From the IMG/VR virus record IMGVR_UViG_3300021364_000017, positions 1 to 64,000 of that record: a stretch of DNA of 64,000 bases; one strand, written 5' to 3'. Under the pieces are notes generated by a model that worked only from the letters and a program-made list of their open reading frames with translations, did not search any database and had not been told where the DNA came from. This document shows positions 36,129 through 60,900 of this stretch, one piece after another (position 1 is the first letter of the stretch; each line of letters opens with the position of its first letter). Position numbers and translations under genes: made by a program. The DNA comes from a virus.

Positions 36129-37127
36129 TCAGAATACATTACCATCAAAACCAAAGTCGTCTCCGATCTCAATTAGTTTATTGTCCTCATTATTGATATT
36201 GTAAACTTTAGAACCAAGAACATGATTTTGAAGAGGTGTATTATCTTGTGCTCTTCTGACAACCAATTTATTTCCAGTGACTGTTTCTACAAACATTTCT
36301 TCTTGACCAATATAAATGTATGTTCCTTCAGTAATAGATGATGAATCATCAACATCTATTACATTCTCAACCATATCAACATTTTCAGAAAGAAGTGTTA
36401 CAACAACACCATCATAATCCTTGATTGCTCTAGGAGTAACTTGGTAAGTCACATCTCTCTCATACTTACCGGATTTGGAACCAGCAATATAACCAATAGT
36501 GGTCTTCTTAATGATATCTCCAGATACATCCTTGAGTGGACCAAATACGTATGTCTTCGCAGTGAATGTGAAGGTATAAATCAGTGCTCTTCTTGTATCA
36601 AAATTACCTTCATATTCATCTGACATATCGATATTATCTAATACGACAGGTATGTTAATTACTTCTTTGAAATTTCCAAGAAACTTGATGGGAAGTGTGT
36701 AACCTGGTTGGAAATATGGAACAATTTGTTCTACAATCTGCAACATATCATCATTCAGTTTGGTGTAAACTGACAATGTGATAGTCATATTGTATGGTAC
36801 AGGAAGATAAGTCTTTCTCTCTTCTGACCCATCTTCAGACTTAATAACCATCTGTTGTGTTTGAGTTGATTTCCTAGAGGAATCATATGTCAGATTGGTA
36901 AACTCAAATGACATTCTAGGAAGAGTCAACTGAACAGGAGCATTCAGATCAGGACTCTGTTTCAGTCTTGCAAGAAACTTTTGGGTAGGTCCATACGCTA
37001 GAGGAACCTTGATAACACTTACAGTATCATCACTATCATCTTTGTGTTTAATTTGGATCCCATTAAAAAGTGAACCAAATCCAATGATAACAGATCTGAA
37101 AATCTCGTTGTAAAAATACTCAAACAT
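36129..37127 (-). CDS. 15: Tail sheath stabiliser / tail terminator (gp15)
   Basis: This protein caps the tail tube and sheath and joins the tail to the head. The beginning MFEYFYNEIFRSVIIGFGSL with FNGIQIKH, and the core LPRMSFEFTNLTYDSSRK, PVPYNMTITLSVYTKLNDDM and QIVEQIVPYFQPGYTL, are diagnostic of gp15. At 332 residues it is about 60 longer than T4 gp15. The extra C-terminal part (YIYIGQEEMFVETV ... VVRRAQDNTPLQNHVLG) carries the RG...H..G-type module also found in the baseplate proteins of this phage. CTAAATA lies 21 bases upstream and includes the stop codon of gene 14. Confidence 0.93.
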   Translation of the reverse strand: MFEYFYNEIFRSVIIGFGSLFNGIQIKHKDDSDDTVSVIKVPLAYGPTQKFLARLKQSPDLNAPVQLTLPRMSFEFTNLTYDSSRKSTQTQQMVIKSEDGSEERKTYLPVPYNMTITLSVYTKLNDDMLQIVEQIVPYFQPGYTLPIKFLGNFKEVINIPVVLDNIDMSDEYEGNFDTRRALIYTFTFTAKTYVFGPLKDVSGDIIKKTTIGYIAGSKSGKYERDVTYQVTPRAIKDYDGVVVTLLSENVDMVENVIDVDDSSSITEGTYIYIGQEEMFVETVTGNKLVVRRAQDNTPLQNHVLGSKVYNINNEDNKLIEIGDDFGFDGNVF

Positions 37128-37148
37128 TATCTTAAGGTTATATACTTA

Positions 37149-37155
37149 TATTTAG
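37149..37155 (-). promoter_or_regulatory. Late promoter CTAAATA overlapping gene 14 stop
   Basis: CCC TAA ATA: the gene 14 stop is part of the element. It lies 21 bases before gene 15. Confidence 0.6.
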
Positions 37156-38558: not shown

Positions 38559-38564
38559 AAGTTA

Positions 38565-39437: not shown

Positions 39438-39461
39438 CTATAATTAGACCTATCTATATTG

Positions 39462-39695
39462 TTATTTATTTAATAAATCCGTGATAGAATTAAGCATAGA
39501 CTTAATTTCATTCATATCAGTTTTTAAATCCGTAACTTCGGATTGAAGTTTTTCGAACTTTTTCTTTTCTTTATTCAGATTTTCCCTATTTTTTATATAG
39601 GTTTGAAATTCAAGATTATTTTTGTTTAATATTGCACCAGAATGAGTATCTCTAAAATACCCATCTTTTCCTTCAACTGGTAAATGATTTTTCAT
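39462..39695 (-). CDS. Small coiled-coil protein, 77 aa
   Basis: A short protein with an N-terminal segment GKDGYFRDTHSGAILNKNNL, a motif seen in small T4-like phage proteins encoded before gene 13, followed by a Lys/Glu-rich helix ENLNKEKKKFEKLQSEVTDL and MNEIKSMLNSITDLLNK, probably a coiled coil. Its start overlaps the end of the DUF4815 gene by one base, so it is translationally coupled to it. Function unknown; a neck or baseplate assembly role is plausible from position. Confidence 0.75.
   Translation of the reverse strand: MKNHLPVEGKDGYFRDTHSGAILNKNNLEFQTYIKNRENLNKEKKKFEKLQSEVTDLKTDMNEIKSMLNSITDLLNK
39463..39470 (-). promoter_or_regulatory. Late promoter AATAAATA overlapping a stop codon
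   Basis: The last codons of the 77-codon gene (AAT AAA TAA) form the element. It lies 25 bases before gene 13. Confidence 0.6.
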
Positions 39696-42600
39696 TATGC
39701 GAATGACAGAACTCTGAGGTTTCTTATTTGAGGTGCATTAGATTGATCAGTTGACGTTCCAATAATCTTAACTCTAAATGACTTAAACGCAACTACATCA
39801 TCAATAGTGAATTTATACTCTCTAAACTGATCTGAAGTAGGTTCAGGCACATATGAATCTACAGTTGGAACTCTCTTATCTGAATTACCATCATTTTGTG
39901 ATATATCAATGATTGAACCATTGGTATCAATATTATTAAATCCTGGGAATGGGGTAAATATTACCTCTTCTACAGGCACATCTTGATTTAATGCATAGAA
40001 TACTCTAATATCATTAAAATTAGATGCATATCCGTCAAGAAGAACTTCTAATGATGTTGCTGGATTTTCAAGAGTAACATTCTTTGAAACATAAATGAAT
40101 CTATTTGGATCTTCTTCAGTATTGTTCACTCTAAAGTCGGAGATATAATCTGTTATAGGTCTATTAACTCTATTCATTGTGAAGACAACAGATGCATTAT
40201 CAAGATCAATTACCGGACTTATTCGTGAATTGTTTGATAACAATGTGAAATTCAATGCGAATGATTTTTTACCAGGTAATATATCACCGTTTAATAAAAG
40301 TTTCTCATTTTCTCGTGATGCAATCATCCTCAAACCATCGAAGTAATTCTTATCATAAAGTGTAGTTTGTTGGAATCCTTTATCTAAGTAAGATTCTTGA
40401 TTTCCTGATACACTAGATGCGGAGATAGTTCTTGATTGAGATAAAATGTTAGTACCAAGAGGTGTAATTGTTGTGACTTTAGGAGTAATTAAATTAAATG
40501 GTAAATTATATGTTCCTTTAACCGATGGACCACCCCCAACTTTATTTTCGTTGAAATATAAAGGAACAAATCCCTCAGAGTTACTAGAAGATCTATTTGA
40601 ACCATTGGTATTTGTTTGAATTTTAATATAATAATAGTCTAAACCAATGGGTTGTTCATTAAGTTCACTTGAGTTTACATTAGAAAGTTCGTGAGTTGTA
40701 TTAATTCTTCTTAATGAAACCCCGTTCAATTCGTATTTAAAGATACTTTCTCCTTTCTCATGGTTTTGTACCACAGTGTTATCAATACCTCTAGTTACAC
40801 CTACTAATGCACTTCCATCAACGCCAGTGTATTCTATAATCTCGTCACCAATTTTTACGTAACCGGGATTAGTACCAGCAACACCAATATTTTCAAATGT
40901 ATTGAAGTGAGTTGGAATATTGTTAGTTACTATAAATGTTGTGGAATCAAAGTTATAATCCTGAGATAATGTAGTTTTTGCAGTGTCACTTTTCACATCA
41001 CTGATGGTCACCGTATTTACATTTGAATATAAACCATGATTTCTTTGGAATACTCTTATATAATTTCCTTGTTCGGTTACGTTTATTGATAAAGGAACAA
41101 CACCACCACCAACTGAAGAATTTAATTCAGTTGTAATTCCTGAATTATTATCATAATAGAGTGGGAAAGATGAATTAGTAGTAAAGTCTCCCTGAACATT
41201 GTCAATAACAAGTGTATTACTACCAAGAATTGCTTGTACTGAAAGTTGAATTCCAGAACCAAGATTTAAATCACCTACAGTGATTGGTGACAAAACATCA
41301 CCTATAACATATCCATTTCCGCCATTATTGATAGTAGCACCTGTAACACTACCATTCTGAATTGTCAAATCTGCTGTTGCGTTTAAACCTTTACCAGTAA
41401 TTGAGGTAAGTGCAACACCAGTATATGTAAAACTACCAGAAGATGGCGTATATCCGATTCCAGAGTTTGTGATAGAAAGATCTGATGTGATTGATCCTGC
41501 AAATGCAACAAGAGTTCCCTCACCCACTCCGTTCAATTGTTTAACTGTATTTCCAATAACAAGTTCAGAATCAGAAACAGTAACACCAAGACCAATTCTG
41601 ATTTTCTTTGAATTAATTTTTAACCCATTAGGATCAATTAATGAGAGATCTGATGGTAAATCTGGATTAAAGAATGTAACTGATCCTTGAGACTTAAATA
41701 TTGCTGCATAAAGTGTGAACTTAAGATCTTCAAATTGAGAAGGTGTCCATACAGAAGCATTTTGTGATTTAAACAATGATCCAAGGAGTGGTTGTTCTGT
41801 AACAAGAATTTGACCAGACTCTTGACCAAGTGTAGAAACATCTGCTTCCCCAAGTCTACTTATCCATACTCTATACTCGGTTGACTTGGAAAGAAGAACT
41901 AATGCGTATTCTCTTCCTGGATTCAAATAAACAGGTGCTTCAAGATTGATAGTTGTTGGAACTGTTCCATCCGAACTAATATTGACATTATCTGGATTTA
42001 CACTGACAGCAGAGAATGGTAAAACTCTTTGCGTTGGAGTTCCAAGATTAGTTTCTCTAATTTCAAACAAAACAGGAACATTTGCATCCTTTGATTGGAA
42101 GAATACATCGACCTTGGTGATGAATACGCCTGTAGGATCGTCAACTATAAATGTTTGTGCAAGAGGGTCAATTCTTCCTCTTCCATTTCCTGGTAGTCGA
42201 GTTGGTATAGGTGCAGGTGGGACTAATACACTCTGACTTGTAGATGTTGTATCTGTGTTAGTATCTGTAGATACAATAGTCGTACTTGCCGATGAGTTAT
42301 CACTCAAAGATCTAGATTGACTTACATCAAATTGTCTTACAGTTGCATTCCTCACAGACAATGTACTCTCTTGAGTTGTATCTAAATCTCCCTGTGAGTA
42401 AAAAATTGATTCACCTGCTGTAGATACGATACCTTCTACTAAACTATTAGTGCTACTGCTTGTAAGTCTGAAATTAGTTCTACCAGTTTCAAATGTGGGA
42501 TTTGCAGGATTAGATGGACTAGGAACAAAATAAGAACATTGAAGAGTTCCTACTCTATCTGAAATCAATCTAACATTGGTAACCTTAGCTTCAGCACCAC

Positions 42601-45600
42601 TAGTGGCACCTGTCAAAATCATAGAAGTTGAAATCCAACCACTGAATTGGGACAATTCTAGTGACTGAAGACTGAAAGTGTCAATATTTAATATTGAAGA
42701 TGATTCAGAATAGTTTGGAGGAATAGTAATTTCTCTATCATATGGATTTGTGTCATAAGTATCTGTTGGATTATTAAATGGTCCATACTTATGATTGGTT
42801 GCAGCAACTCTGAAATTGATTGAGGGAATAGTAGAACTATTGATTATATCAGAACCTCCGTCATTCATTCTGCCCCTTATTGTCTCACCAACAACAAAGG
42901 TTCCATGTAACATTTCAATTTCAATGAGTTTTGGTGTTACATAGTTATTAACATCAACATCGTCAAAGAAGGAATAAAGTCTTGTAAATGGTTTGAATCC
43001 AGTAGCATTTACATCAATATTACGAGATCTCATGAAGTTGATGATTTCTCTCTTTACAACTCTGTTTCCTAGAGACTCGGTATCAATTCTCTCGTTAACA
43101 AAGAATTGATTACCTGTTCTATTTTGCGCTAAAGTTGTAGACGTAGTTGCGGTAATATTATTGGTTGTTATGTTTGTAGTTTCCGTCTGGAATGTTTGTG
43201 TGGTTACTGTCAGACCATTGGAAGTTTGGGTATTTTGACCCGTTTGTCTATTAGAAGAATTGGTCTGAGTAGATTGATTGTTTGATAAAGATGTATTGAC
43301 ATCTACACCAACAGTTTGCCAAGAATTCCAAACTACAGGTGATATACCCGATCTTGAACCATCTGCTCTTGTTGTAATTTCTGCGTTAAGAGCCTCTGCA
43401 ACACCTCTAAAAGATCCCTCTATTAGAACATCATTTACTTCAAGTTCGTTAACATCAATCCAAACATCTACTTCTGGAGTAAGTTCAATACTACCTTGCC
43501 AGAATTGAACGAGGAAAGGTGTTACATTTTCAACTCTAGTTGCATATGGTTGTTGTAACCATGCATCATCCGTATAATCAAGTGTCAGAATTCTATCAGT
43601 CTTTTTAACATTTGTACCTACTACTTTAGCAAAATTAGAATCTTGATTTGTATTTGAAGTGGTACCGATACCAGATATAGCAGTAGTACCAAGTTCAAGA
43701 TTTAATGCAGTGGTATAGTGAGATGGTCTAAGAATACCTCTTTCAGTGTCTATACTATTCCTTACCCCAATAGAAGTATCTTGAGTCTCAAGAGTAGTAA
43801 AGTTATCAACAAAAATACCAGATTTAAATCTATTGTTCCCGTTGGCATCCTCTACGAACAAATTGAGTGTATTTGTTTCCAGTTGATTCAATGAAGTGTA
43901 ATATTCAAGATTTTTAATTCTTTGCTCAAGTTTTGCAATATCACTCATCTGATATCTTTTATTCTCAATGAATTTTACTTCTGCATCAGTCGTATTATAG
44001 AGATATGCTGGTAAGTAAATATTAGCAATGTTCATTACATTGCTTAAACTTTCTGGAAGTCTTGGTTGATCATCTGGAGTACCATAAGAAACTCCAATTG
44101 AACCCTCTCTATCAATATATAATCTATCAGCTCTGGGTAAGTAATATTCATAAGTTACAGTGAGTGATTCATCTGAAGCTATAATATTTTTGGATGATTG
44201 TAAATTGCCACTTGCACCATCAGCAAATACTCTCCCATCAAATTCAAATGGTGATCTTGCGCCTTCGGATAATGAGTAATCAGATAATCTTGGTCGAGCA
44301 TCTATGATATCAGAATTTCTTACATTTCCAATCAATGAAATTTCTTTACCATAATCATATCCAGTGTATGAATTAATTGTTGTTATGTCACCATCATCAC
44401 CTGGGTCATAAGTTGATGATGCATAATAAACTCTCAATTTTCTGGAAGGAATTTGTGCTTCACCCCTTCTAATCAGTCTTGAATAGTCATAGAAAGTATT
44501 TCTTTGACCATTAAAGAACTTAAAATCTGTTGTAATTTCTTTTGAACCTAAATTTACCTCAGAGGAAACCGCATTTACGGTAGATTTTTGGAAATTTATT
44601 ACCTCACCGTTTTTAAAAGTTGATTGATTCAAATACGTAAAGTAGATTGAATTATCGTCAAGTCTCTTTAGATATATTGCTTTTGCACCACTAGTTTTGC
44701 CGATCAAAGTTTCACCAATAATCAAATCATTAGTTGTTCCACTTAATCCATCAAGTTGTAATAATGTCATGAATGGTGATGTTGGATCTTCATTATCCTC
44801 TGACTCAAAAATACCATAGATTTTGTAAACATCTACTGTATTGAGTGATATTATCTCATCTTGAACTCTTGTTCCAAATGGGAAGTTCCCATAAGTAAGA
44901 CCATCATTTAAAGTGGTTGTTCCAATACCTGACGCAGAATTACTAGACTTATTGATAATCAGATCTTGAGATATATTTCTAAGTTTTGTTTTAGAAGTTA
45001 CATTAGTTTTTCTAATAGTTGTAATTAATTGTGTATCAGTATCATTTGAACCAAGACCATTAATTTGAAGTGATTGAGAACCATTGGTAAAATCAAACCT
45101 GTCTTCAGTCAATACTTCTGTACTGCCATCAGATCTAATAAGAGTATATCTTTCTTCATCAAATGGTAAAAATACCTCATTAGTCCCTGCATTAATAACT
45201 GGAGTAGAATTATTGCTAATAGAGGTATTGAATTGTTTTCTTATAATAAGTTCTGATCCTACTAAATCGACGGATGAAATATTTTGTTTTGGAAATTCGC
45301 TGAAAATCGCATTGTTACTCGATGAATTGCCCGAATCAAAAGAACTTGCTCCCTTTGTACTAAGAATTTCAAGATTTGAAATCTCTTCATCTGATTGTGG
45401 TAATCCTCCATCACAAATACCATTTACAGTTGTAACTCCAACTATATTTAATTTTGTTCTACGTACTCTTGAAACCCTTCCAAAACTTACATTTTCGAAA
45501 CCTGGTCTAGAATATTTTACTAAATTGCCGACTGATGCAATTCCTATGAATGAAAATCCAGGATCTGTTGGTAATGTGATAAGAGAAGTTCCAGAACTAT

Positions 45601-47341
45601 TCTCACTCTTAATACCGGCAGAACCAAAACTACGTATTGAAGTTTGTACAGTATCTCCTGTAAAAGTTTTGGAACCACCTACATTACTGAAAACTGACTT
45701 TACGTCGGAGAGTTTATAGTTTGTATCTCCTACAACAAATCTTGAGTTATCTAAAACTCCATTAAAGAGAATTCTTTCACCTGTGAAGAAATCTCCCTCA
45801 ACATTATATGCAGTTATTGTTGTAGCTGATGAAACATTACTCTTAAGATAGCCTTTTGCACCACTTGATTCACCTTTTATAAATGTTGATGTGTTAAGTG
45901 TTACTGGTTCATTTAAAGTAATTTCAGAATAAGTTTGAACATCAAACAATGATAAATCAAAAACGTTTAGATTTGGGAAAGTAGTGTCATAAGAACCACT
46001 CTCCAACGCAAAATCATAAACTCTAGCAATTCCAATTTCCTTACCTGATGATAAAAATGGATCATCACCCACCCTCTCATCTCTTAAACTTAAAGTCAAA
46101 GTGGTATTAACACCAATAGATGCAGAACCATTTACACGATTAAGATTTAAAGTTGGACCAAAACCAAAATTTACTGCTTGATTTTCAAGAGTTTTTGTTG
46201 ATCTTGGTTTTTCAAAATCAATCAAAGATGTTGCAATAGTCTCTACTTCATAACCCTTGACATATGCCTTACCAGGAGAAATTTTGTAAATTCCAAGATC
46301 ATCACTGGGAACATTACCGGATTGTGTAGTTTGATTTGAATTATAGATTCCTCTATTACCCTCATTATCATTAAGACTGTTTTTTACAGTTGTTACAAAC
46401 TCTTTTACATAATAATTACCAGATTCATCAAATGTTCTTCTTGCAAATTCATCTCCAAGAAAGTTAAATTCAGTATTTTTGTTAATTACACGTAAAATTC
46501 CGTCTTTTACCTCAGATAACTGAATAAAATTTGTATCATCAAAACTCCCAAGTGGTTTTTTACTAAGAGATGTAGAAATTTTCAATCTATCTGCACCTGG
46601 AGCAGTAAAATTATTAAATCCACGTGCATTATCATTCAATGATGTATCATCATCTGACGAAATAATCTCCTCAATAACGTCTAAACCAACTCTATAAGAT
46701 GGTGTGTTACTGTATTGATCTAAAATTAATGTTTCCTCATTAACATTAACAAAATATCCTCTTATATAATAAATTCCTCTTGAAATATTAAATGAAGAAC
46801 CAATAATTGCAGCATTTGAGGGTATTGTTAATGCAAATCCTTCGCCTGATGATATAAATGTTGACGCAAAAGATATGTTTTTACCTGCTAAAAGAATTTC
46901 ATTATCTAAAAATGAAATTATTTCTTCATCTGATGTTGGAGAATTCTCATAATTCAGATAAAGAGTGTAAACTCCTCTCTCCGACTCTTGATCAGTGATA
47001 TATGATACTACTTTTGCAGTTATACCTGAGGTTGCTCCTGTGATAGTAGAACCAATGAGTTGATCAAGATAAACTCCGACAGGAATACCAATAAACTCTG
47101 GTTCAATTTGGACACCATAAAAATTTTGGATGTATGTTAAATCACCAGGTATGACTTTTGTACCCTCTTTAAAGATATTATTGCCAAAATTCTCAACCTG
47201 ATTTTGAAGAATTGATTGTAAGCTAGTTAATTCCCTTGCTTGAACAGGAAAACCTGGCTTAAATAAAACCTTGTAAAAATTTGATTGAGGATCAAAGTCG
47301 TCAAAATAAGGTGCGACATTGAGATTAGTTTCCTGTGGCAT
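39695..47341 (-). CDS. Giant DUF4815-type baseplate/virion structural protein, 2548 aa
   Basis: The N-terminal 500 residues match the DUF4815 layout: MPQETNLNVAPYFDDFDPQS, FKPGFPVQARELTSLQSILQ, then GTKVIPGDLTYIQNFYGVQI and SPGKAYVKGYEVETIATSLI. The rest is beta-rich, with a Gln/Asn/Thr-rich linker around residue 1380-1430, a GxGY repeat near 1990-2020 and an RG...H..G module near 2160-2200 (YVKIGDEIIEYTG ... TRGIDNTVVQNHEKG). The C-terminus (IDDVVAFKSFRVKII, PQIRNLRVLSFA) is typical of cyanophage homologues. It occupies the place of T4 genes 9-12 and may replace several of them; this is inference. It starts after gene 8 with GAGAT before the ATG. Confidence 0.88.
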   Translation of the reverse strand: MPQETNLNVAPYFDDFDPQSNFYKVLFKPGFPVQARELTSLQSILQNQVENFGNNIFKEGTKVIPGDLTYIQNFYGVQIEPEFIGIPVGVYLDQLIGSTITGATSGITAKVVSYITDQESERGVYTLYLNYENSPTSDEEIISFLDNEILLAGKNISFASTFISSGEGFALTIPSNAAIIGSSFNISRGIYYIRGYFVNVNEETLILDQYSNTPSYRVGLDVIEEIISSDDDTSLNDNARGFNNFTAPGADRLKISTSLSKKPLGSFDDTNFIQLSEVKDGILRVINKNTEFNFLGDEFARRTFDESGNYYVKEFVTTVKNSLNDNEGNRGIYNSNQTTQSGNVPSDDLGIYKISPGKAYVKGYEVETIATSLIDFEKPRSTKTLENQAVNFGFGPTLNLNRVNGSASIGVNTTLTLSLRDERVGDDPFLSSGKEIGIARVYDFALESGSYDTTFPNLNVFDLSLFDVQTYSEITLNEPVTLNTSTFIKGESSGAKGYLKSNVSSATTITAYNVEGDFFTGERILFNGVLDNSRFVVGDTNYKLSDVKSVFSNVGGSKTFTGDTVQTSIRSFGSAGIKSENSSGTSLITLPTDPGFSFIGIASVGNLVKYSRPGFENVSFGRVSRVRRTKLNIVGVTTVNGICDGGLPQSDEEISNLEILSTKGASSFDSGNSSSNNAIFSEFPKQNISSVDLVGSELIIRKQFNTSISNNSTPVINAGTNEVFLPFDEERYTLIRSDGSTEVLTEDRFDFTNGSQSLQINGLGSNDTDTQLITTIRKTNVTSKTKLRNISQDLIINKSSNSASGIGTTTLNDGLTYGNFPFGTRVQDEIISLNTVDVYKIYGIFESEDNEDPTSPFMTLLQLDGLSGTTNDLIIGETLIGKTSGAKAIYLKRLDDNSIYFTYLNQSTFKNGEVINFQKSTVNAVSSEVNLGSKEITTDFKFFNGQRNTFYDYSRLIRRGEAQIPSRKLRVYYASSTYDPGDDGDITTINSYTGYDYGKEISLIGNVRNSDIIDARPRLSDYSLSEGARSPFEFDGRVFADGASGNLQSSKNIIASDESLTVTYEYYLPRADRLYIDREGSIGVSYGTPDDQPRLPESLSNVMNIANIYLPAYLYNTTDAEVKFIENKRYQMSDIAKLEQRIKNLEYYTSLNQLETNTLNLFVEDANGNNRFKSGIFVDNFTTLETQDTSIGVRNSIDTERGILRPSHYTTALNLELGTTAISGIGTTSNTNQDSNFAKVVGTNVKKTDRILTLDYTDDAWLQQPYATRVENVTPFLVQFWQGSIELTPEVDVWIDVNELEVNDVLIEGSFRGVAEALNAEITTRADGSRSGISPVVWNSWQTVGVDVNTSLSNNQSTQTNSSNRQTGQNTQTSNGLTVTTQTFQTETTNITTNNITATTSTTLAQNRTGNQFFVNERIDTESLGNRVVKREIINFMRSRNIDVNATGFKPFTRLYSFFDDVDVNNYVTPKLIEIEMLHGTFVVGETIRGRMNDGGSDIINSSTIPSINFRVAATNHKYGPFNNPTDTYDTNPYDREITIPPNYSESSSILNIDTFSLQSLELSQFSGWISTSMILTGATSGAEAKVTNVRLISDRVGTLQCSYFVPSPSNPANPTFETGRTNFRLTSSSTNSLVEGIVSTAGESIFYSQGDLDTTQESTLSVRNATVRQFDVSQSRSLSDNSSASTTIVSTDTNTDTTSTSQSVLVPPAPIPTRLPGNGRGRIDPLAQTFIVDDPTGVFITKVDVFFQSKDANVPVLFEIRETNLGTPTQRVLPFSAVSVNPDNVNISSDGTVPTTINLEAPVYLNPGREYALVLLSKSTEYRVWISRLGEADVSTLGQESGQILVTEQPLLGSLFKSQNASVWTPSQFEDLKFTLYAAIFKSQGSVTFFNPDLPSDLSLIDPNGLKINSKKIRIGLGVTVSDSELVIGNTVKQLNGVGEGTLVAFAGSITSDLSITNSGIGYTPSSGSFTYTGVALTSITGKGLNATADLTIQNGSVTGATINNGGNGYVIGDVLSPITVGDLNLGSGIQLSVQAILGSNTLVIDNVQGDFTTNSSFPLYYDNNSGITTELNSSVGGGVVPLSINVTEQGNYIRVFQRNHGLYSNVNTVTISDVKSDTAKTTLSQDYNFDSTTFIVTNNIPTHFNTFENIGVAGTNPGYVKIGDEIIEYTGVDGSALVGVTRGIDNTVVQNHEKGESIFKYELNGVSLRRINTTHELSNVNSSELNEQPIGLDYYYIKIQTNTNGSNRSSSNSEGFVPLYFNENKVGGGPSVKGTYNLPFNLITPKVTTITPLGTNILSQSRTISASSVSGNQESYLDKGFQQTTLYDKNYFDGLRMIASRENEKLLLNGDILPGKKSFALNFTLLSNNSRISPVIDLDNASVVFTMNRVNRPITDYISDFRVNNTEEDPNRFIYVSKNVTLENPATSLEVLLDGYASNFNDIRVFYALNQDVPVEEVIFTPFPGFNNIDTNGSIIDISQNDGNSDKRVPTVDSYVPEPTSDQFREYKFTIDDVVAFKSFRVKIIGTSTDQSNAPQIRNLRVLSFA

Positions 47342-47346
47342 ATCTC

Positions 47347-48933
47347 TTAGAATTGCAAGATAACTTTAACGTCTTCTTTCTGTGAAGATGATCTAGTAAC
47401 AGAGGGTCTGTTGTCAACATAAATGATGTCACCAGAATATTTCTGAGACTCTGGATTAGAAACTCCATTAGTGAATTTCTGACCCAGGAAGTATGTCCTA
47501 TTATTTAGAGTGGTAGACACACCTGTAAAATTCTGGTCAATTGTCAGTTGAGAACCTTCATTTGGTTGTATAATAAGACTTCCTCCTATTGAATCGGGAG
47601 TTGCGGTAAATCTTAATTGTTCAAAACCATATTCTGGATCATTTTGACTGTCGTTAATGTTGTCAAAAGAAGTTTTGAATCCTGCAGTTCTTCTATCCTG
47701 CCAATATTTTAAAACTCCAGTCTGTTTATCATATGAAACGACTTTTCCAACTGCAGTTGAACCAATTCCTGTACTTGTATCTTTGAAAATTGTTTGTGTA
47801 ACAAAACTATCTGCGGTAAATGATGCTTCTCCTATATCTCCTACAAGTTTTAGAGCATAAAGAGCACTTGCTTTATCTTCACTTAAATTGGTTACTGTGT
47901 TAAAACTTTTTGGATTTTTAACAATTCCTACTCTAGCATATTCATTTCCAGTTATAAAATCCGGGTTTTGGGTATCATTCTCAAATCTTGCATACGAAAG
48001 GACATTATAAGCACCCAATTCTCGATAAATGTCTGCACCATGACCACCAGGAGGAGGTATAATTACATTAAAAGATGGATCTTCGGTACCTTTTGGAACA
48101 CCACCACCATTTAAATCGAGTCTTCCAAATGAATATCCACTACCACCCTTCGAAACTGTAACAGACTCTACCTTTGAATCGTTATTTACAACAATTGTTG
48201 CTTCTGCACCCTTTCCATCACCAAGAATTGGAACTGTATATGTTCTATTAGCATCTCCAAGACCAGTTCCCCTATTTCTAATAGTTACTATTTTGATTTG
48301 GCCAGAATTTTTTGCATTTTCTCTGATAGCACTATAAATGGAACTGGTATCCCAATCATTTGGTACAGGAATGTAACTGGTAGATTCAAATTTTACGATT
48401 TGACTAGGATTTATTGTATAAAGATATTTCCAAATATAACCGTCACCACTACTTCCAGCCTCTCTTGGTTCCAAATCTGTAAAATTAGGTTCATCAAGAG
48501 ATGGTCCACCATTAAATGAATTATCAGGATTTGAATTGTTGAAAAGACAAATATAAACCTTAAATTCGCTATTAATTACGTAGAAGTTGGAATCGTAGAT
48601 ATCAAATGCGTTAGATGGTAGAGAAGGATTAGTCCTACTGATATCATTCCTCCACATATCATATGTGGTTCCTGACTGCCATTTAATTTTTTTTACTACC
48701 TGACTTACATCCCCAGAATTTATCTTTTTAAGGGCCAACATTGTGTCCCAATAAAAATTAGATTCATCTAAATTATCTTTAGGTGCGGGAGGATTTGAAT
48801 CCCAATCAATCTGGAATTCTGTCGCATCAGGCAATCCAATCCAAGCATAATATGAATTATTAGAATCTTTAACAGAATCTACAAAATTCTTGGCATTTAA
48901 TATACGAAGTTGATCAGTAATTATCGCAGCCAT
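47347..48933 (-). CDS. 8: Baseplate wedge subunit gp8
   Basis: Wedge protein of the baseplate. Cyanophage-type gp8 signatures are clear: MAAIITDQLRILNAKNFVDS, NNSYYAWIGLPDATEF, WDTMLALKKINSGDVSQVVK, SGTTYDMWRNDISR and EPREAGSSGDGYIWKYLYTI. At 528 residues it is longer than T4 gp8 (334). The extra middle part includes one GxGY repeat (TVSKGGSGYSFGRLDLNGGG). The late promoter TATAAATA is 21 bases upstream. Genes 8 and the DUF4815 gene are separated by five bases and probably form one message. Confidence 0.92.
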   Translation of the reverse strand: MAAIITDQLRILNAKNFVDSVKDSNNSYYAWIGLPDATEFQIDWDSNPPAPKDNLDESNFYWDTMLALKKINSGDVSQVVKKIKWQSGTTYDMWRNDISRTNPSLPSNAFDIYDSNFYVINSEFKVYICLFNNSNPDNSFNGGPSLDEPNFTDLEPREAGSSGDGYIWKYLYTINPSQIVKFESTSYIPVPNDWDTSSIYSAIRENAKNSGQIKIVTIRNRGTGLGDANRTYTVPILGDGKGAEATIVVNNDSKVESVTVSKGGSGYSFGRLDLNGGGVPKGTEDPSFNVIIPPPGGHGADIYRELGAYNVLSYARFENDTQNPDFITGNEYARVGIVKNPKSFNTVTNLSEDKASALYALKLVGDIGEASFTADSFVTQTIFKDTSTGIGSTAVGKVVSYDKQTGVLKYWQDRRTAGFKTSFDNINDSQNDPEYGFEQLRFTATPDSIGGSLIIQPNEGSQLTIDQNFTGVSTTLNNRTYFLGQKFTNGVSNPESQKYSGDIIYVDNRPSVTRSSSQKEDVKVILQF

Positions 48934-48954
48934 TTTTTATGGAACTTTTTTTTC

Positions 48955-48962
48955 TATTTATA
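48955..48962 (-). promoter_or_regulatory. Late promoter TATAAATA
   Basis: Perfect element 21 bases before gene 8, in the 43-base gap after the gp7-position gene. Confidence 0.72.
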
Positions 48963-48976
48963 GGTATATTGAATGT

Positions 48977-51900
48977 TTATAATATATAATTATCAAATTT
49001 TAGGGGATTGAACCTCTGAACAATTGGTGATGTTGTTATACCTGCATATGGTTGTGGAGAAAATTCCAGTGCAGTGGAACTTACCCTATTAATAAACTCA
49101 ATTTTACCATAAGAATATTCACCATATATTCTAGCATTATTAAAAGATCCATTACCGCTTGAGCCAGAAACCAAAAATTCTACTCTTCTAATAGTTGTTG
49201 TTCCAAGTCCCACATTTGATAGATCCTTTTCGAAATCATAAGCCTTTGTTGCTCTGTAAATTCCATCAGCAGTATCATTACTCAACAATGAAAAATTTGA
49301 ACGATTGATGACAAATACATCGTTCTCCTCTATTTGACTTATTGTAATTGCAGTACCAACATTATTAGCACTTCTTACAAATGAATCCTGAGGTATGTAA
49401 AGTTCAATTGTAAGAAGATCATTTGCAGATTTTGCAAATCCTACAATCTGTCCTTGATCACCACGATATGAGTTCACTTCAATAGTCTCTCTTCTTAATG
49501 ATGGTTGTTCAACTATGATCAATGGATCTTGAGTATAACCAGCACCTACATTATCAATTGATATTGAAAATAATTGATTACCAACAACTGTTGCTGAGGC
49601 AGTTGCACGTGTTCCACCTACTTTATCATCGGGCTCACTTATAGAAACAGATGGTGAAATAAGGTTGGAATATCCAATTCCATTATTTGTAATAGAAATT
49701 GCTGCAACTTCTGAACCTGCAATACTTACATTAGCAGTTGCAGGAACAATTTCGGATTGGTCAGTAATATTAATCTTATCCTGATAATCGATGAGTATTG
49801 TCTCTCGATTAAAATTAAACAATGGTCTTAACGTATCAACATATACAAAATTACTAGATAAACCAACAAAAGAAGTAATATAAGCCGAAGGGAAAATAGA
49901 TGGCTCTTGAGAGACTCTATCTTTGGTTACAAATTTTCCATCAATAGATATGTCAGTAGTTTGTTTACACCAAGTTACAGGTCTAACAATGGTTTGATCA
50001 GTTGTAACTCCAGGATTAATATATGGGAATGTATTAGTAGTATCTAATGTTGTAATTCCAGTAACAGTTCTTGGATCTTGTGACAATGCAATTGATTGCC
50101 CTCTCTCAATATCATTATTAAGTTGTAGAGAATCCCCTGGCTTAACTGTTTCTAAAACATCAACAAGAACAACGTCAACATTTGGAGTTCCTTTATAGAA
50201 AAGAATTTTTGAAGTATCACCTTCTTTTGGTGGTTCAGTAAATTCTATGTCACCACCACCTGTAAATTTATATGCCTCTCCAGGTACTTGTAAAATATCA
50301 TTAATAGTGACAATAAGATTTTGGGAAAGAACAATACCTGAACCTTTTACCGCAACAATTGCAAATGGCTTACCTGCAATCGTAAGTGGAAACTTCCTTT
50401 CAATTCCGTCAAATTTGTTATTTAATTTGTCAAATACCTCAATTTCTCCTAATGTCCACCCATTGAATGTATCACGATAGACATCTGATACTGTAATTTC
50501 AAAATTATTATCTGAAAAATCAGAAGTAGTTGGAATTCCGTTTGGACCACCAGTTTCAATTGTTAATCTTTCCCCAATCCCATATGCAAAACCTCCACTG
50601 ATCAGATCGAAATCTATAACACTGGAACCCTGACCAACTGTGATATCAACTCTTGCCCCAGTTCCAACTCCAGTTTGACCTTCGGAATATATTAAAGGAA
50701 TGTTAGAATATGGTATTGGTGCATCAATGACAATTGATGGTGGGTCACTTCGCTTTAAACCTGATCCTCTATTGTCTATATTAATTGCAACTATGTTACC
50801 ATTTTGTACAGTTGCTGTACCTATGTTGAAAATTGATGTTATTCCTGTATTCGGATTGACATAACCAACATTTACTACAGTCTGAATTCCAACTCTATAA
50901 CCGGAACCACTGTTCCCAATTGAGACACTTTCGATTCTTCCAAATCTCACAGTGCAAGTTGCACCGGCTTGTATTAATGGTTGATAGCCTAATCCATTAG
51001 TAGATCCTAAAGATATAATTGTTCCACCTCTTGGAACATCAGATTTATTTGGATCATCTTCTGAGGACAAATTGTCTCCAGTGTAGACGATACTTGTAAT
51101 TCCAACCGACTCCACTAATCTGAAATCCCCAATAGTTTCTTGTGTTCCTTTTGGTTCTTGAATAATATTGGAGTTAATAATAATAGCTTGTTGAGTTGAA
51201 AACCCAGTTACAGTATTTCCATTACTTAATAATGTAAAGTTTCTCTCTTGACCATTGAATTGACTCTGTATGTTATCAAAAGTATAATTTGTGAAGTAAG
51301 TATCAAATGTTTCATTTTCAATGCCACTTCTTAGGAATGTTCTTCCCTGAAAAGATGAATTTGTAGTAATTCCAATATAATCCCTATCATCAGGACTTCC
51401 CGTAGTAGTTCCAATTGGAGTTTTACCAAATGGTGCCGAAGTGAAATGGATTATATTGCCTAAAATATTATAATCTCCACCCATCAGTTCAATATTTGCT
51501 CCGTTACTATGAGTTTCAACTTTAGTGCCCAATTGTCCCCTAAGAACTCTAAATGAATTTGTACTTTCAACACCTATGTCTTGAATTAGCATAAATTCAT
51601 CATCAATTTTAATTAAATCGTTGGCCTTAAATGATTGTACACCTACAACATTAAATATATTATCAAATATTATGTTCTCATCCAATGTTGTCGAAACATT
51701 TACCTCTGTTAAAGGTGCCTGGATTAAATTGTCAATCGCCACCAACGATTTTGTATTTTGTTTTTGGGAAGTAATTTTATGATCTGTTCCAATACCAACT
51801 GATGTGATGTCGATTAAATTGGGTGAACTGAATAGAGCATCTGTAGCACTTACAGCAAACCCAATCTTAGAATCACTAATCTTGACTATAAAGACTTCTG

Positions 51901-54900
51901 TTGGTAATTTATCGGTAGTAACTCCAGATATGTTTGTCGGTGCAATGTTAATTGCATTGGCACTTGAAGACTCAGAATTCTCATAACTATAATTTACTTT
52001 TTCGCCAGTTACAAAGTAGTGATTATTAATAGTAACTTGATTTGATGTTGTATTAACAACTGAAGAATCACTTCCATTAAATATTCTTTCGAATATTGGG
52101 AAATTATTATTCTTCAATTCAAATGCAGTCTTCTTATCAAATTCTGTACCTGTATAATTTCCATAATCTGAAAAGAGAATATTATTATTTAAATCACTAA
52201 TCGAATTAATTCCAACAATATTATCATAATTCTTAAGTGTTATACCAAAAGTTATGACATTAACTGATGTATTTGGATTCGGTGTAAATTCTAAATTAAC
52301 TTGAGAACCACTTACCGATGCACCAACAGTACCTAAACCACAGCAATTCGATAATACTTGACCATATTTTACGATATTAAGAGTGTCTGAATCAACAAGA
52401 TGACACTCAAACATTTCATATTCGTCGTTTGTTACATCTTCGATAGTAACCAAGAAGTAACCTGAGGAAAATGGATCTGAATAAGAAGCAATTGTTTGTG
52501 CTACAGGATTGCTGTGTTGGAATATTGACAAATAATATGATTCCAGATTGGAAACTTCCAAACTTTGTGAACCTACATTATTATTTTGGTTATGAACTTC
52601 AATTACAAGGACATTTGCAGTTATTGCAGTCCCAACGATAGGAGTAAATTTGACATCAATATTACTTCCTACAGTATTTGCACCAAATGTTCCAAATCCT
52701 GAAGTTACACCAGGAGCAGTATTAATGTCACCATACTGAAGAAGTTCGACTTTACCCGAATCATCATGAAGAATATTTAATTCTGTGTAGAAGTAATTAT
52801 TCTCAGCATCTTCAAGTTGAATATGTACTTTTGCGGATCTATGTGCAGAATCAATTTGTACAAGTGTAGTTTCAGTATTAACTGGAACAACCAATGAAGA
52901 TGATCCTATTGATATAATGTCTCCTAATGTGGTATTACCTACTCCTGTAACACTTTCTACACCACTGAAAGAGAAGTATGATATATCGTAATTATTAAAT
53001 TTGAAATTGTTTGGGAAGAAAGTAAGATCCCATTGATCATCATTTTGTCTATCATAATCAAATGAACCAAGTGCGATGTTTGATTCTATTGAACCATATT
53101 CATTTACGTAACCATTTGATCCATCTTGGATTACAGTTACAGCACTGAATTGTTTTCTGTTTCTAAGTTCACTATCTTGAACTAATGTGAATATTTTGTT
53201 CCAAGCATATTTGTTATCAAAAGTATCTACTACAGAGAATTTTGTTTCTCGAGCATTTGAATTAAATTCTTCACTAAAATCATCAATTTTTAAAACTCTG
53301 TTTCCTCTTGATTCAAAAAAGTCAATTAGAATTTTATTTTCTAATACTATATTTGTTGATACTATTTTTCCATCTGATATATTTGAAGTTCTTTCTGTTG
53401 CACCATCAAAATCATAGAAACAATAAAGTGACTCTTCACCAATTACACTGACAACCGACACAACATCAATTTCAGCAACTGTAACAATACCAACTGCGGT
53501 ATTTTCAACCACTAAATCACCAAATTTTTCAAAACCAGAAATGTGACTCAGCGAACTAACAGGATCATCCCACCTATCATAGGATATTTTAGATTTAAGA
53601 GAATATGAAAAGTTTTGATAATATTCATTATTAGGTATGACCTGTAAACTATCATTTAAGAATCCAGAATTTTTCTGCCACCCAGAAATAAAAGTTGCTC
53701 CAACTCCAAGTTTAATTGTTGAATTAAAATCAATTAAATCCTTAACAACACCAGCATTTCCCGATCCTTGAGAAATAATAGTTGATCCTTTTTCGAAATC
53801 TTTATCAGACTGAACATATAAAAATCCACTTATTGGATCAAATCTTTCAATAATACCAACACCGCTTGGATTAGTTACTATCTCCCCTTTAAAGAATGGA
53901 GAGGTTTTAATAGAAGCTTCAAAAATAGGAAAGAATCTTTCTGGAACAACCGTACCAGATTCAAAAGTGGTTACATTTCCAGGAATTTCCCCATTTTCTA
54001 AGAAAGTTGTCAAATCGTATTCAATGTAAGCTCCATTACCCCCAAGATTTGGGTCAAGTGACTTAATTTCAAACAATGAATATTCATAATCCTCTGAGTT
54101 ATAACCTTTGCCAGTAGTACCTAATCCAATTGCAATATTTTCAACCAATACAGATTCACCAACAACAAAAGGCCAATCACTTTCCTTGCTAAATTGATTC
54201 TTAAATCCTAACCTTACAATTTTTGTGTTTTCATCATAACTTACAGAACTTATACTAAATCCATTTGTATTATTGGTAGGTATAAAAGTTGGGGGAGTTA
54301 AATTAAGTGAATTTGTGTTCTTAATGATTCTAACTTGATCATCTCCTAGATTATAATCTAAATCAACATCAATCTGTTCATTAGTCAGTCCATCCAAAAC
54401 TATTAAATTTGGTGCTTGACTGTAGTTAATGCCTGCGGAATTTACACCAATTGAATCAAATTTCCCTAATGGAGTAACTAAGAGTACTTGTGGAAGATTT
54501 GCAATTACATTTAGTGTTTTATCTGATGGGTAGCCAAAACCAATATTATTAAACTTTGTAGATAAAACTTTTCCGATCGTGTTGGATGATGGTCTTAGTA
54601 AAGCACCACTACCGGTTTCACTCATTACTGAAGAAAATCCTGGAAGTGATTTAAATCCAATTCCCTTGTTAAACCCATTCAGTTTACTTATTGGTCCTGT
54701 AGTATTTTTAGATACTGTAGTATATGTGACATTTTTATTAAATGAATTATTATTATCAGGATTAAATGGAATATTGTAATCAAACGTATTGTTAGTTATA
54801 TTAGAGATAGTATATGTACCATCAAATTTATTATGCACTAAATTTATAGAATTGTTATTAGGTACATCCACATCTTCATATATTTTAAGTTTTTTATCAG

Positions 54901-57900
54901 GAATATTGTCCAAATTAATTGGATTAAAGGAATAATATAATTTTTGAGGTATATTTTCCCCAACAGAAAGTGATAGTGATGCATTTTCTGTCAGACCAAC
55001 ACTCCCAGATCTTATAACTTCAAAATTGGATGTTGTTTTAGTGGTTACAAATTCATTATTCTTTTCAGGATCGGTAAACAATAATAATTCATATGCTGAA
55101 AAATCAAACCCTCCTTTTCTGAATGACAATGAACTATCTGACAAATCAAATTTTAAAGTTTGATTTTTTTGTATGTCAATTGGTGGATTTATTCTTGATA
55201 GAGTGGCTGTTTTTGCAGAACCAACATTTACAAATGTGGGATTTTCTTTTGTAAGTTCGAATTTATTTTCGACTAATTTAATAGTATCATTTCTTAAGAC
55301 ATAGACATAATACAAACCAGAATCAATTAGATTTTCTGATGGTCTATTATTTGGAGTATTATAGATTATTTTGTCGCCTGTCTTATACTTATTCTCAGGA
55401 ACTTTAAATGTATCGTTTACAATATCGACATTTGATTCACTAATTTCATCAGGATCAAAAACAATCCTTCTATTTCTATCATTATATTTTACAAAAATTG
55501 TGACCGTATTAGTTGGATCTACGTTTACTTTAACTCTGTCACCATTTTGTAATCCGTGTGTTTGTGCAGTCGAAACTGTTACGACATTTCTTGAAGTCCT
55601 TCCTTTTAAAGTTGTTGGAATGTTTGTAGTAAAACTATGATAATTACTAAGACCTGATTTTGATTGGAAAGATAAAAGACCGCCAGATTGTGAATTACTA
55701 CCCACATAACTTCCAACAGAATTAACACCTACTCTTTGAGACGATATACCAATAATATCTTTAGAAAGTGGAACTGCGAATAAGCTTTCATTATCAGACA
55801 AATTGTAAATTGAAGAACCTTGTATCCCACTAAATGCTCTAATCGACGCACCTTCGTTAGTTTTATATAATAATGGCGTATTTAAACTTAATCTATGATC
55901 TGGAATATAAATTTCTTTTTCATTCAATTGAATTTGAGTTTTTCCAACTCCAGGATTTGAAAATGTTATTGTAGTAATAGCTCCACTATTTTGAGTTCCA
56001 ATACCGAGTGATTCGTTTGGATCAAAATATAATTCTCTATTAAAAATTAAATTTTCTTTTGTTGAAATATTAGAAGATGTAAATTTAATTTTTCTTGGAT
56101 CGTCCCTTACAATTGTACCAGCAGGGTGTGATACAACCAATGAGTTATCAATACCTCTCAATATCCTAATTCTACCTGATATTTTATCAACATTTAGAAC
56201 TTTTACTCGTTCCTCCTCAATATTGAGAATGTCGTTGGATCTTATAACTCTTTCATCTAATGGACCTGAAAGATATGTATATGTTACAATACCAGTTACA
56301 GTATCTGTCCCAAGACCAACTGACAAATACCATCTCTCACTGGTTACTCCTACAACATATGAACCTTCAAAATTCTTGTAGTATGATGAAAGATCATCAA
56401 TAAAAATAGTATCTAAAGATTTGTAATTATGCGGTGTAGAAGTTAGACCAACAAATCCATTTTTTGAGTCAATTGTTGAAAATTCGACCTTTTCAATTGT
56501 TGTAGATGTAAGACTGATATTATCTACATTTTTGCCTGATAACTCAGTCACTCTGTAATCAAGATTTCTTCCTCCAGTAAATGTAGTATCAAACTTTACC
56601 TTATCATTTATTGAATAATTTTCTCCAGAGTCTAATATTTCAATATTATCTACGGAACCAGATGAAACTGCAGTAATATCAATTAATTGATTTCTCTCTT
56701 TATCTGAATTGAAAATATAATCATAACCACTATTTGAATTGTTTGTATAATAAAAAGATGTATTTCTAAAATATGATTCTTCTACTAAATTAAAATCTGT
56801 TTGGTTAGATGATGATTTAAAATTAAATTCTTCAGGTTTAGAATAGTATTCATTTCCTATAACATAAGGAAATACGGGTCTCCTACTATTTTTAAATGGT
56901 CCTGAGCCATCTTTATTATTAGAGATAGAAACGAAGTATGCATATACACCATTTGGATAATCGGGAGTTACACAGAACCTCCCATTTGATTTGTCCAAAT
57001 CTCCACTTCCTGTGAAAATATAATCATTTACAAAAATGCCTGTGGGAAAATCGTCAGAAGAGGGTCTATTATCAGGACTATTATTAATCTCATACCCAGA
57101 TTTTAATCTCACTATCCTACCACTACCATTTCTAAACTTAAATCCATACGGCCCATATATGGGATTTCCATCATATGCCCAGCCTAAAATTGGTGAATGA
57201 AAATTGATATTTCCATCATCTTGTGACAAGTCTGATATACCGAATTTTATATTATTTTCATCGAAACCAGACAAAACATTTAATGAATCTCTGAGAGAAC
57301 GTGGTGCGTAAAGTGATGCAAATTGAAGTGAAGAATTATCAATACTTTCACTTATAGTACAGTCGTCCTGCTGTAAATTTGCAAAATTCTTTTCAAACAA
57401 ATTAATATTCCATGCCTTTATACTTGCCTGAACTCTTGCACCAGAACCAGAATTTATTACATTGATAGTAGTTTTACCCGATTCATAACCTACACCACCC
57501 TTGTTTATAAAAACACTTTCTATTTTTCCATCTTTTAGTATGGGTACCAATACAGCAAAATTACCAGTGTCAGATATAATTTCAAGATCTGGGGGAGAAT
57601 TATAACCAGAACCACCTGAATTAATAACTACTTCTTTAATTTCACCATTATTAATTACTGGAGTGAGTTTTGCTTCTTTGCCAGATTCAAATGTTGTCTC
57701 TGGTTGTCTTGCAAAATCTATTATTGTAGAAGCTCCATATCCAACACCACCATCTGTAATATCAATTGATTCAATAGAACCTCTGAACACTGGTTGAACT
57801 TCTGCCTGATACAAGAACACATTTCCGATAAATGGATCCTCAGAAATTAACCAATTAGATCCATTTTGTACCCATACATAATAATCTGTCGGTGTAATTT

Positions 57901-60900
57901 CATCTACTAGAATCTCAGCCTCATCTTGAGTAAATGCTAAAACATTTGTTGGTGTAATGATATTTTTATCAACTGGAGATTCGATCAAGAACAGGTCATT
58001 GAAATTTTCTACAAAATCTTTATCATAAAGTGCAGGAAGTCCCTGAACCTCAACTTTAATTGGTGGATAGTTAAAAGATCCTGTTCCTTGATTAGTAAAA
58101 TTAATTAAAATATTATTATCATAATAAAAATCTCTTGCAGTAGAACCTAAACCAACCTCACTAAGAGAAAATGCGTCATTACTTATTTTCTTTACAAAAT
58201 ACTCATTATCTTCATTAAGTCCATTAATAGTAACACCAGAACCAACAGTATATTTTATTACTTCTTTTGATTGGTATCCATGATTTATAATTTCTATCTG
58301 ATTCGATGCAGTATTTACACCGTCGGCAGGTATTGTTCTTCTCTTATTTTCATAACCTGTTCCCGGATTTGTCACAATTACATCAGACACAACCAATTTT
58401 AGTTCTGAAGCAGCAATTACTTGTGGTCCACTACCAAAATCTTGTAGTTGAATAGTATTAATACCCAACATCCCTTCAGACATTGTTCTATGTAAAGTTA
58501 TAGCCTTTTGAGTTTTAACGAAGGCATAATATTCTGCATCTGTAGATAATCCCGAAATTATCTTTTTCTTTCCTGGTTCGTATATAACTCTTTCACCATC
58601 TTGAAATTTGTGGTCGTCATCAAATATAATTTCGTTTGTCGTTATATTTACATTAGATGAAAAATCTGCTAAAAAAGAATTCTCAAGTCTAATTCTCTTC
58701 ATTCTTGGTTCTGCAGTAGCACCCTTTCCATTTCCACCAGTAATTGAAATGAAAGGGGCCTCAGTATATCCTAAACCGGTATTTGTAACATCAATTCTTT
58801 CTAATTTGCCCAGTACATTACATACACCTGTAGCTCCTACACCAACTTCATCTCTTACATTTAAAATAGGAGGGTTTATAATATCATATCCTGATCCACC
58901 TGATTTTATAACGAATTCTTGAATATCACCATAATATACACTTTCAGAAGACTTATAATTGAGCAATTCTAAACCATTATTAAAAATACCAATTTTTCCT
59001 GGTCTAGTCAATTCTGTTTTATTTCTTTTTTCTGGACTGAGAACCTTCCTATAAATTGCTTGAGGTTTTATATCTTTATTGTAAAAATCAAGTAAAGTTA
59101 TTTTTGAGTTTTCAAAAGTACCGCCAATGGATACGTAAGTATTTCTGAACAAATCTGACTTACTTTTTGAAAGTTTGAAACTGGATGCATCAACCCTAAA
59201 TGCGAAATAGGTGCCGGTGATTATTCCTGTGATGCCATTTCCTTTTGGCTCAACATATAAAGAATCTCCTGTATAAAATCCGTGATCTGATAAAGAACTT
59301 GAGTCATTAGTAAAATTGTCTATACTAATTGTATCTGAGATAGATAATTCATTAGAAAATGTTATACTTTTGCCATACGTATCAATTTCCTGGTCGATAT
59401 ATCTCGGTATAGAGTTTGATGCAATAATAGTACTTCCATCAAACTTAGAGTAAATGTTTTGAACGTTGCTTACAAAATCTCCAATAGAATACTTTGAAGA
59501 TTTTCCTTTTAATAATTGATTTTCAAGAAAAAATATACCATTCGTATCAATATTTTCATTAAACCTTACTACAACATCTTTTAGAGATGAAACTGTAATT
59601 ACTTCTCCAAGAACAGAATATGAAAAATCTTCATTTTGATATATTACTTCATAACCTTCTTTAAAGAATGTATCATCATATAAAGAAAAACTATAAGTAT
59701 TATTACCAAGATTTTTTGTATCTAAAATTTTAAATTTTGTTTTGATGTTGAAGATATAATTATTATTTTTCTTGCCTGGTGCTTCATATCCAAGCGATTT
59801 TATTTCAATAGTATCATCCTTTTCAAAATAAAAAGTTGGATCATCTTGTACAAAATCCTTAAGAGTAGATGTAAATCTTACTCTTATTTCTTGTGAGGTA
59901 TCAATACCAACAAATGCATAAGAATATGAGTCTAGATTTACATTTGTAGTCTTCTTTAATACATTTGTAACACCCACAACATTAAAGAATTGATTTATAG
60001 TTTTCCCACTATATGCAATTCCAATCTCCTGTCCATCAATATCGTCAACGACTATATTTCCAAATTCTGGAAAATCAATAGTAGAATCAACACTGATGAC
60101 AGTATCTCCAATACCGACATCCTCTAAAAGTTTAGTAAGAGGGTTTGGTCTAAATTCTCCAAATATAGATCCATTAACATCAGAGTCTCTCTGAAATCCG
60201 CTATCAATACTGATTTGATAATATTGAAAATTACTATATGGAATTTTTTCTACATTTGTGACAGAACCCCGGGCATTAGTACCCTTTTGGAAAATGGTAA
60301 GATTCTGTAATTGTAATGGATCACCCTGAAGTTTTTCTACAACAAAATCCTTTGTTACCTTATAATCCGCATTTGATGGGGTAAGAAGAAATTGTGATGG
60401 ACGAATAACTTCTACATCCTCACCATATAATGCTCTGAAGAGAATTTCATATGATTGATCTGTACCTTTTGAGGTATAAAAACTATCTGCACCATAAATG
60501 AAATTTCTCTGATCAAGATCACCAAATAAATTCCTTTCTGTAAATCCTGGTGTAACCTGTCTTTTTAACTTTTTGAAAAACTCTTGAAGAAATAATACGT
60601 TTAAATTTTCGACAGTCGTTCCGTTAGAGTGTTCGTCTATCTCTGATTTTGTAAATGTAAGTTCATCAGGTTTACCGGTGGTGATATATGTGGTGATACC
60701 ACTAAAACCCCTTTTACAATTTAAAAATTTTATTTTTGACTTTGTCTCGTAAAAAATTATTTCATCATCAATTTTTATAATACCATTATTTTCAGCAAAA
60801 CCCTCAGTAGATTCAACTCTTATATTAGTTTCAGTATAATCTAAATTTTCAGATAGAGTAGTAGAGTTTACAATATTGAAAAGTTCATCAACTTTTACAT

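Follow-up and report, generated by a model that had tools for sequence, protein, structure and literature searches.

A predicted beta-barrel module in the gp15, DUF4815 and gp7-position tail proteins of a T4-like marine phage

A segment of ~75-80 residues (about 78) recurs in three tail proteins of a T4-like marine phage, namely the tail terminator gp15, a DUF4815 protein and a giant baseplate protein at the position of gp7. Sequence profiles indicate that these segments are one homologous domain, and on the same basis the DUF4815 copy and copies B and C of the gp7-position protein are assigned to the module family. This module is very probably a homologous barrel domain. The explanation that fits the observations best is probably that tail proteins are decorated by a rigid barrel, which would serve as a brace or a docking knob.

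The module and its host proteins

The window, i.e., the whole stretch of 64,000 nucleotides that was analysed, is the tail-gene block of the phage and belongs to an IMG/VR record of 67,130 bases. The order on the minus strand is gp25, gp6, the gp7-position protein, gp8, the DUF4815 protein, gp13, gp14 and gp15, where gp25 and gp13 are presumed from their gene position. The same order, small genes aside, is annotated in Prochlorococcus phage P-SSM2. The features are listed in Table 1. Residues 4-244 of gp15 form the PF16724 T4-gp15_tss core (Pfam, E 7.9e-84, 281 bits, cut-off 25). The closest isolate to the window gp15 among the matches listed is Synechococcus phage RN05-S (86% over gp15), and coverage of this protein reaches 80% or more in 58 of 2079 phage records. 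Within the gp7-position protein, residues 1288-1379 (window 56924-57199) correspond to a YHYH domain (E 3.6e-23). Between gp8 and gp7, RN05-S carries a gene (186537-187868) with the annotation 'baseplate wedge tail fiber connector', of which the gp8-gp7 junction of the window (48933-48977) has no counterpart.

Table 1. Host proteins and module copies in the window
Feature	Position	Strand	Extent	Remarks
gp15	36129..37127	-	332 aa	tail terminator / sheath stabiliser
Module in gp15	36177..36413	-	residues about 239-316	leave-out HMM iE 4.3e-12
DUF4815 protein	39695..47341	-	2548 aa	PF16075 E 4.4e-55; phrog_358
Module in DUF4815 protein	40718..40987	-	residues about 2119-2208	leave-out HMM iE 1.5e-13
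gp7-position baseplate protein	48977..61060	-	4027 aa	between gp8 and gp6, as annotated in P-SSM2
gp7 copy C	51467..51703	-	residues about 3120-3199	leave-out HMM iE 1e-11
gp7 copy B	56087..56320	-	residues about 1581-1658	weakest of five; leave-out HMM iE 0.0024
gp7 copy A2	59924..60148	-	residues about 305-379	sixth, degenerate; E 0.014; predicted barrel
gp7 copy A	60587..60874	-	residues about 63-158	leave-out HMM iE 1.1e-9

An earlier sequence-only reading had described a ~40-residue unit with the motif RG...T...H..G in these three proteins. All strings that it quoted are present in the minus-strand translations and the unit is real, but its length is about 78 residues rather than ~40. The module starts at TLxxx...(T)xIxV and ends just past HxxGxxV. 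In gp15, the motif reads R-A instead of R-G. In addition, gp15 was said to end with the module, which indeed lies near the C-terminus but is followed by a conserved DDFGF tail. In an alignment of 20 module rows, a Glu and an Arg are invariant, while T, L, T and G are nearly so. A regular expression for E...RG..T..H..G, composed post hoc with the motif already known, gives five matches in the window proteins, whereas 300 shuffles average 0.10 and never exceed 1. In gp7 copy A, an insertion of ~16 residues separates RGFSG from HSNG. Copy A2 has kept the first half of the module and lost RG..T..H..G; it scores iE 0.0011-0.18 with the leave-one-out HMMs and was returned by the window profile search at 59987-60136. 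The number of copies may also vary between phages, as one relative of the DUF4815 protein (among loci L081-L126) has three module matches in a single reading frame.

The relationship between the copies was assessed with IMG/VR relatives fetched for each site (80 loci for gp15, 46 for DUF4815, and 80, 17 and 80 for gp7 copies C, B and A). After dereplication, 43, 20, 37, 8 and 35 rows remained respectively, including the window sequence, and these groups were compared by hhalign. The strongest pairs are gp15-C (96.6%, E 6.8e-10), DUF4815-A (94.5%) and gp15-DUF4815 (90.4%), followed by gp15-B (81%), DUF4815-C (71%) and C-B (71%). Weaker pairs are C-A (38%), DUF4815-B (33%) and gp15-A (25%), and reversed-profile controls reached 0.1-2.9%. 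The sole failing pair of the ten consists of gp7 copies B and A (0.42%), for which hhalign gives no direct link and which are connected via the other copies only. Moreover, an HMM made from four of the groups recovers the fifth for all five sites when run against the 27 window proteins, copy B being found weakly. In the window, a profile that itself includes the gp15 and DUF4815 copies found these at E 4.9e-35 and 6.7e-26 respectively. The window search with a 20-row profile returned gp15, C, A, DUF4815 and A2; copy B, which is absent from the 20 profile rows, was not returned. The claim of a module common to all three proteins is borne out by the five recovered sites and the nine matching pairs. 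A chance motif is rejected on the basis of hhalign, the leave-one-out HMMs and the shuffle control.

In a module tree of 65 rows and 84 columns, the copies cluster by host gene with 5 changes, which is the minimum possible; the gp15 group has a support of 65/63 and the gp7 C group, if counted by itself, needs 2 changes. Because the copies cluster in this way they appear to be old, and a recent shuffling of modules between genes inside one phage is rejected on the same ground.

Predicted fold and comparison with known barrels

AlphaFold2 models were made for gp15 (45 rows, mean pLDDT 62.3) and for residues 1-385 of the gp7-position protein (26 rows, mean pLDDT 62.4). Both have a pTM of about 0.4 and are only locally confident. 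The gp15 module has a pLDDT of about 85-91 over most of its length and forms six strands between residues 242 and 311. For gp7 copy A the pLDDT is about 72-85, with the inserted loop below 50, and for A2 it is about 83-90 over most of the copy. Where the sequence-only reading could have been contradicted by differing folds, the same small beta-barrel is predicted for all three of the six copies that were modelled (gp15, A and A2), aligning to the tail hubs JBD30 gp53 and Chi gp30.

The agreement between the gp15 and gp7 copies was judged via their common matches to solved hubs in VIA-align 2, which warns that Z under 8 may reflect a common arrangement, and the module matches (Z 7.8-9.6) are near that level. 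The gp15 module matches JBD30 gp53 (Z 9.2, rmsd 2.1, 77 residues), residues 61-150 of VP1 9in6_M (Z 9.6, rmsd 2.7, 79 residues) and Chi gp30 (Z 8.7, rmsd 2.7, 88 residues). Its match to the tail-tube protein of phage Mystique has a Z of 9.0 but an rmsd of 4.5. Copy A aligns to the JBD30 hub at 478-560 (Z 7.8, rmsd 2.4, 77 residues). For copy A2, close matches are the Chi hub at 488-580 (Z 7.8, rmsd 2.1), lambda gpJ at 489-567 (Z 8.0, rmsd 2.5, 73 residues) and K1 lyase at 140-230 (Z 8.3, rmsd 2.2), and looser ones are Mystique (Z 9.3, rmsd 4.0), GP4 8jov (Z 8.9, rmsd 4.2) and VP1 (Z 8.5, rmsd 4.7). The topology of the siphophage hub barrel, a small beta-barrel of ~75-90 residues, is thus found in gp15 and both gp7 copies, which align to 8rk3 and 8vjh, and in the case of A2 also to 8k35, with an rmsd of 2.1-2.7. 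A Foldseek search of the PDB with the gp7 model gave no match at E ≤ 0.001, while 75 structural matches at E up to 0.001 were obtained in BFVD, gp7 homologues among them. The P22 coat protein is absent from the fold lists, among the matches listed.

The fold matches rise above the level of a common arrangement because the sequence HMM marks the same segments of JBD30 and Chi. In a test on six sequences, the module HMM finds JBD30 gp53 at 506-553 (iE 3e-6) and Chi gp30 at 493-569 (iE 5.5e-6) and 942-984 (iE 1e-5), and three reversed controls of this test yielded nothing below E 0.33. JBD30 506-553 and Chi 493-569 lie within the structurally aligned segments; the second Chi site was detected from sequence alone. 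A profile search of the PDB also ranked Chi first (E 5.5e-8) with weak domain i-Evalues of 0.18 and 0.20, and gave JBD30 a whole-sequence E of 0.12.

The hub barrels of JBD30 gp53 and Chi gp30 resemble the module in both fold and sequence signature within the same segment, that of JBD30 carrying VDDEIVRVDAV...LARGCADTVPAKHLAGARVW. They differ by their low identity in the fold alignments (12-20%) and by their siphophage hub hosts. In JBD30, hub domain VI is a small six-stranded β-barrel that touches domain VII and stabilises the baseplate (PMC11445458). Residues 478-560 presumably correspond to this domain. In lambda gpJ, an additional domain (483-569) is placed between two strands of HDIV (PMC10721106), and this extra domain is the adorned OB domain of PMC11101478. 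Its fold matches gp7 A2, whereas neither the module HMM nor a whole-genome profile search matches the gpJ sequence, so that the link is one of fold. The hosts differ as well, gpJ being a trimeric tail-tip hub and not a terminator or wedge protein. None of the hosts in the window has the module as an insertion in a hub domain IV; these hosts are gp15 (PF16724), the DUF4815 protein and the gp7-position protein.

The tailspike of phage LKA1 offers a further comparison. In its gp49, residues 284-370 form an inserted six-stranded barrel, for which the authors point to a likeness with both the I-domain of the P22 coat and the N-terminus of V-ATPase (PMC5701251). The LKA1 barrel is likewise an insertion and matches gp7 A2 (Z 7.8, rmsd 3.6, 80 residues), but its neighbour is an enzyme and the gp15 module superposes poorly on it (rmsd 9.6). 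The N-terminal barrels of F1-ATPase match gp7 A2 only (Z about 6.2-6.5, rmsd 2.1-3.0), within the range of a common arrangement.

The module as an optional part of gp15 and its possible role

The presence of the module in gp15 was surveyed in non-random sets, for which four queries were chosen and their nearest relatives collected. The survey comprised 322 usable loci out of 326, after three that are open at the 3' end and one with an incomplete core were dropped. The module is present in all window-type (77/77) and Syn19-type (80/80) loci, i.e., 157/157, and absent from all P-SSM2-type (79/79) and S-RIM8-type (80/80) loci, i.e., 159/159. Six named phages are divided equally, three with and three without. 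In the gp15 alignment the absence is clean, lying between YxVxP and DDFGF with conserved flanks, and pairs with and without the module have core identities of up to 86%. T4 gp15 (PF16724) is alike in the core (4huh, Z 13.9, rmsd 4.2, 168 aligned residues) and, as the sequence-only reading stated, has no module, no match being found in its 272 aa.

The gp15 module is an optional insertion. A tree of 57 gp15 cores requires 4 changes (4-5 in bootstrap replicates), 2 of which are forced by well-supported branches, and it is compatible with gain as well as with loss. The module tree, with its 84 columns and the support of 65/63 for the gp15 group, is compatible with a single gain as well as with several. 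The mean identity is lower for the module than for the core (57 versus 73% and 56 versus 81%), with the module below the core in 2843/2926 and 2862/3160 gp15 pairs. E276, R292 and D315 are 100% conserved (to two decimals) in gp15 modules, and the positions conserved in at least 90% are G240, T244, V259, I271, E276, V290, R292, H302, G305 and D315. A module that evolves faster than the gp15 core while E276 and R292 stay fixed is what is expected of a decoration whose core is constant and whose surface varies.

The preferred mechanism starts from a motif that very probably marks a compact beta-barrel of ~78 residues, homologous to the siphophage tail-hub barrel. The hub counterpart would be the extra barrel that lambda gpJ carries within its hub domain IV, with a fold common to tailspike insertion domains. 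On all three host proteins alike, the barrel may form a rigid knob on the surface. Its core, with the invariant Glu and Arg, would maintain the fold, and its variable surface could brace neighbours or dock a partner. As T4 gp15 is a hexamer (PMC3004832), six barrels may ring the neck-sheath junction, and in the baseplate proteins the barrels could space the wedge parts and provide contacts among them. Such a brace or docking role seems reasonably plausible.

The fold and the rate of divergence would also suit an adhesin, in which an OB-like sugar-binding barrel binds host polysaccharides weakly and reversibly from many points of the tail. The lambda counterpart has been named an OB domain (PMC11101478), OB and Ig-like decorations of T5 are proposed to bind cell-surface carbohydrates (PMC10038345), the LKA1 barrel adjoins the active site of the tailspike (PMC5701251), and the rapid divergence of the module relative to the gp15 core is as compatible with a host-glycan adhesin as with a decoration. 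However, gp15 sits at the top of the tail, distant from the host surface, no aromatic residue is found among the at least 90% conserved positions of its module, and the JBD30 barrel is described as stabilising the architecture (PMC11445458). An adhesin role is considered less likely, but it is a live alternative. The same holds, with about equal probability, for a more specific docking function. The gp15 barrel would then hold a tail-fibre or whisker-like protein, and it would be missing where a phage has no fibres of this kind. This agrees with the contact between a fibritin loop and gp15 in T4 (PMC3004832) and with the presence or absence of the barrel among gp15s with cores up to 86% identical, but it accounts for the gp15 copies only.

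Convergence would make the segments unrelated beta-rich stretches, alike in a beta-hairpin and an RG-turn by chance or structural need. Small beta-barrels are indeed recurrent, as illustrated by the weak fold matches that extend to the F1-ATPase N-terminal barrels. Nevertheless, this explanation is very improbable, given profile matches that run collinearly along most of the unit (reversed controls of at most 3%), the detection of sites by leave-one-out HMMs, the common and similarly spaced E, R, T, H and G, and the coincidence of the sequence-located and structure-located segments in JBD30 and Chi. For the decoration barrel, a wider proposal is more doubtful than the role in bracing or docking itself. 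It would be a single unnamed family definable by sequence, moved among tailed phages by insertion and deletion at surface loops. Common descent would then link the T4-type tail terminator and giant baseplate proteins with the inserts of siphophage hubs and with tailspikes, and an optional six-knob ring of gp15 at the neck would determine the kind of accessory protein that fits the tail top.

Spread of the module and relation to earlier work

The module is found in a range of phage proteins. A comparison of 20 module sequences to PHROG reaches 14 families (E up to 0.01), with annotations of tail, tail fibre, baseplate wedge, virion structural and unknown. Together with the solved hubs and the tailspike structures, this supports the earlier suggestion of a general phage-structural building block. 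The same suggestion called the finding unexpected, which has to be tempered: the barrel fold and its decorating of phage tail proteins are already known, decoration barrels of the same fold having been described in hubs and tailspikes (PMC10721106, PMC5701251, PMC11445458). No description of the sequence family, of its occurrence in gp15, DUF4815 and gp7-type proteins or of its gain and loss in gp15 was encountered in the passages of open-licence literature searched, with queries other than the motif itself. The 'extra structural module' of the LSH1 paper is an unrelated matter. As a known Pfam or NCBIfam domain the module is rejected, since the best E in single-sequence hmmscan was 0.009, with unrelated names that each occur in 1 of the 20 sequences.

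A sequence signature is now available for a domain that is unmodelled in the family libraries searched. It allows baseplate proteins of T4-like marine phages, which are very large and lack annotation, to be parsed in part, and a single building block connects the top of the tail with the baseplate and with the tail tip of siphophages. Pairs of gp15 of which one member has the barrel and the other lacks it amount to a natural deletion experiment on the decoration function.

Searches of genome contigs with the Chi and JBD30 hubs as queries (36 and 167 stretches) gave no relatives, and a module profile search of these contigs gave no conserved stretch. In whole genomes, the module profile has 6 matches in RN05-S, 5 in P-SSM2, 6 in Syn19, 4 in S-RIM8 and 3 in P-HM1, and none in the genomes of T4 and lambda. 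Some copies lie beyond the tail block, at 45458-45688 in RN05-S (E 1.2e-13) and at 32749-32928 in P-SSM2 (E 2.3e-10), in long open frames of 1639 and 1911 aa. In the Pelagibacter phages Skadi-1, -2 and -4, the first half of the module resembles a protein with the annotation 'tail tube B' (E 1e-4, about 48% over 52 residues).
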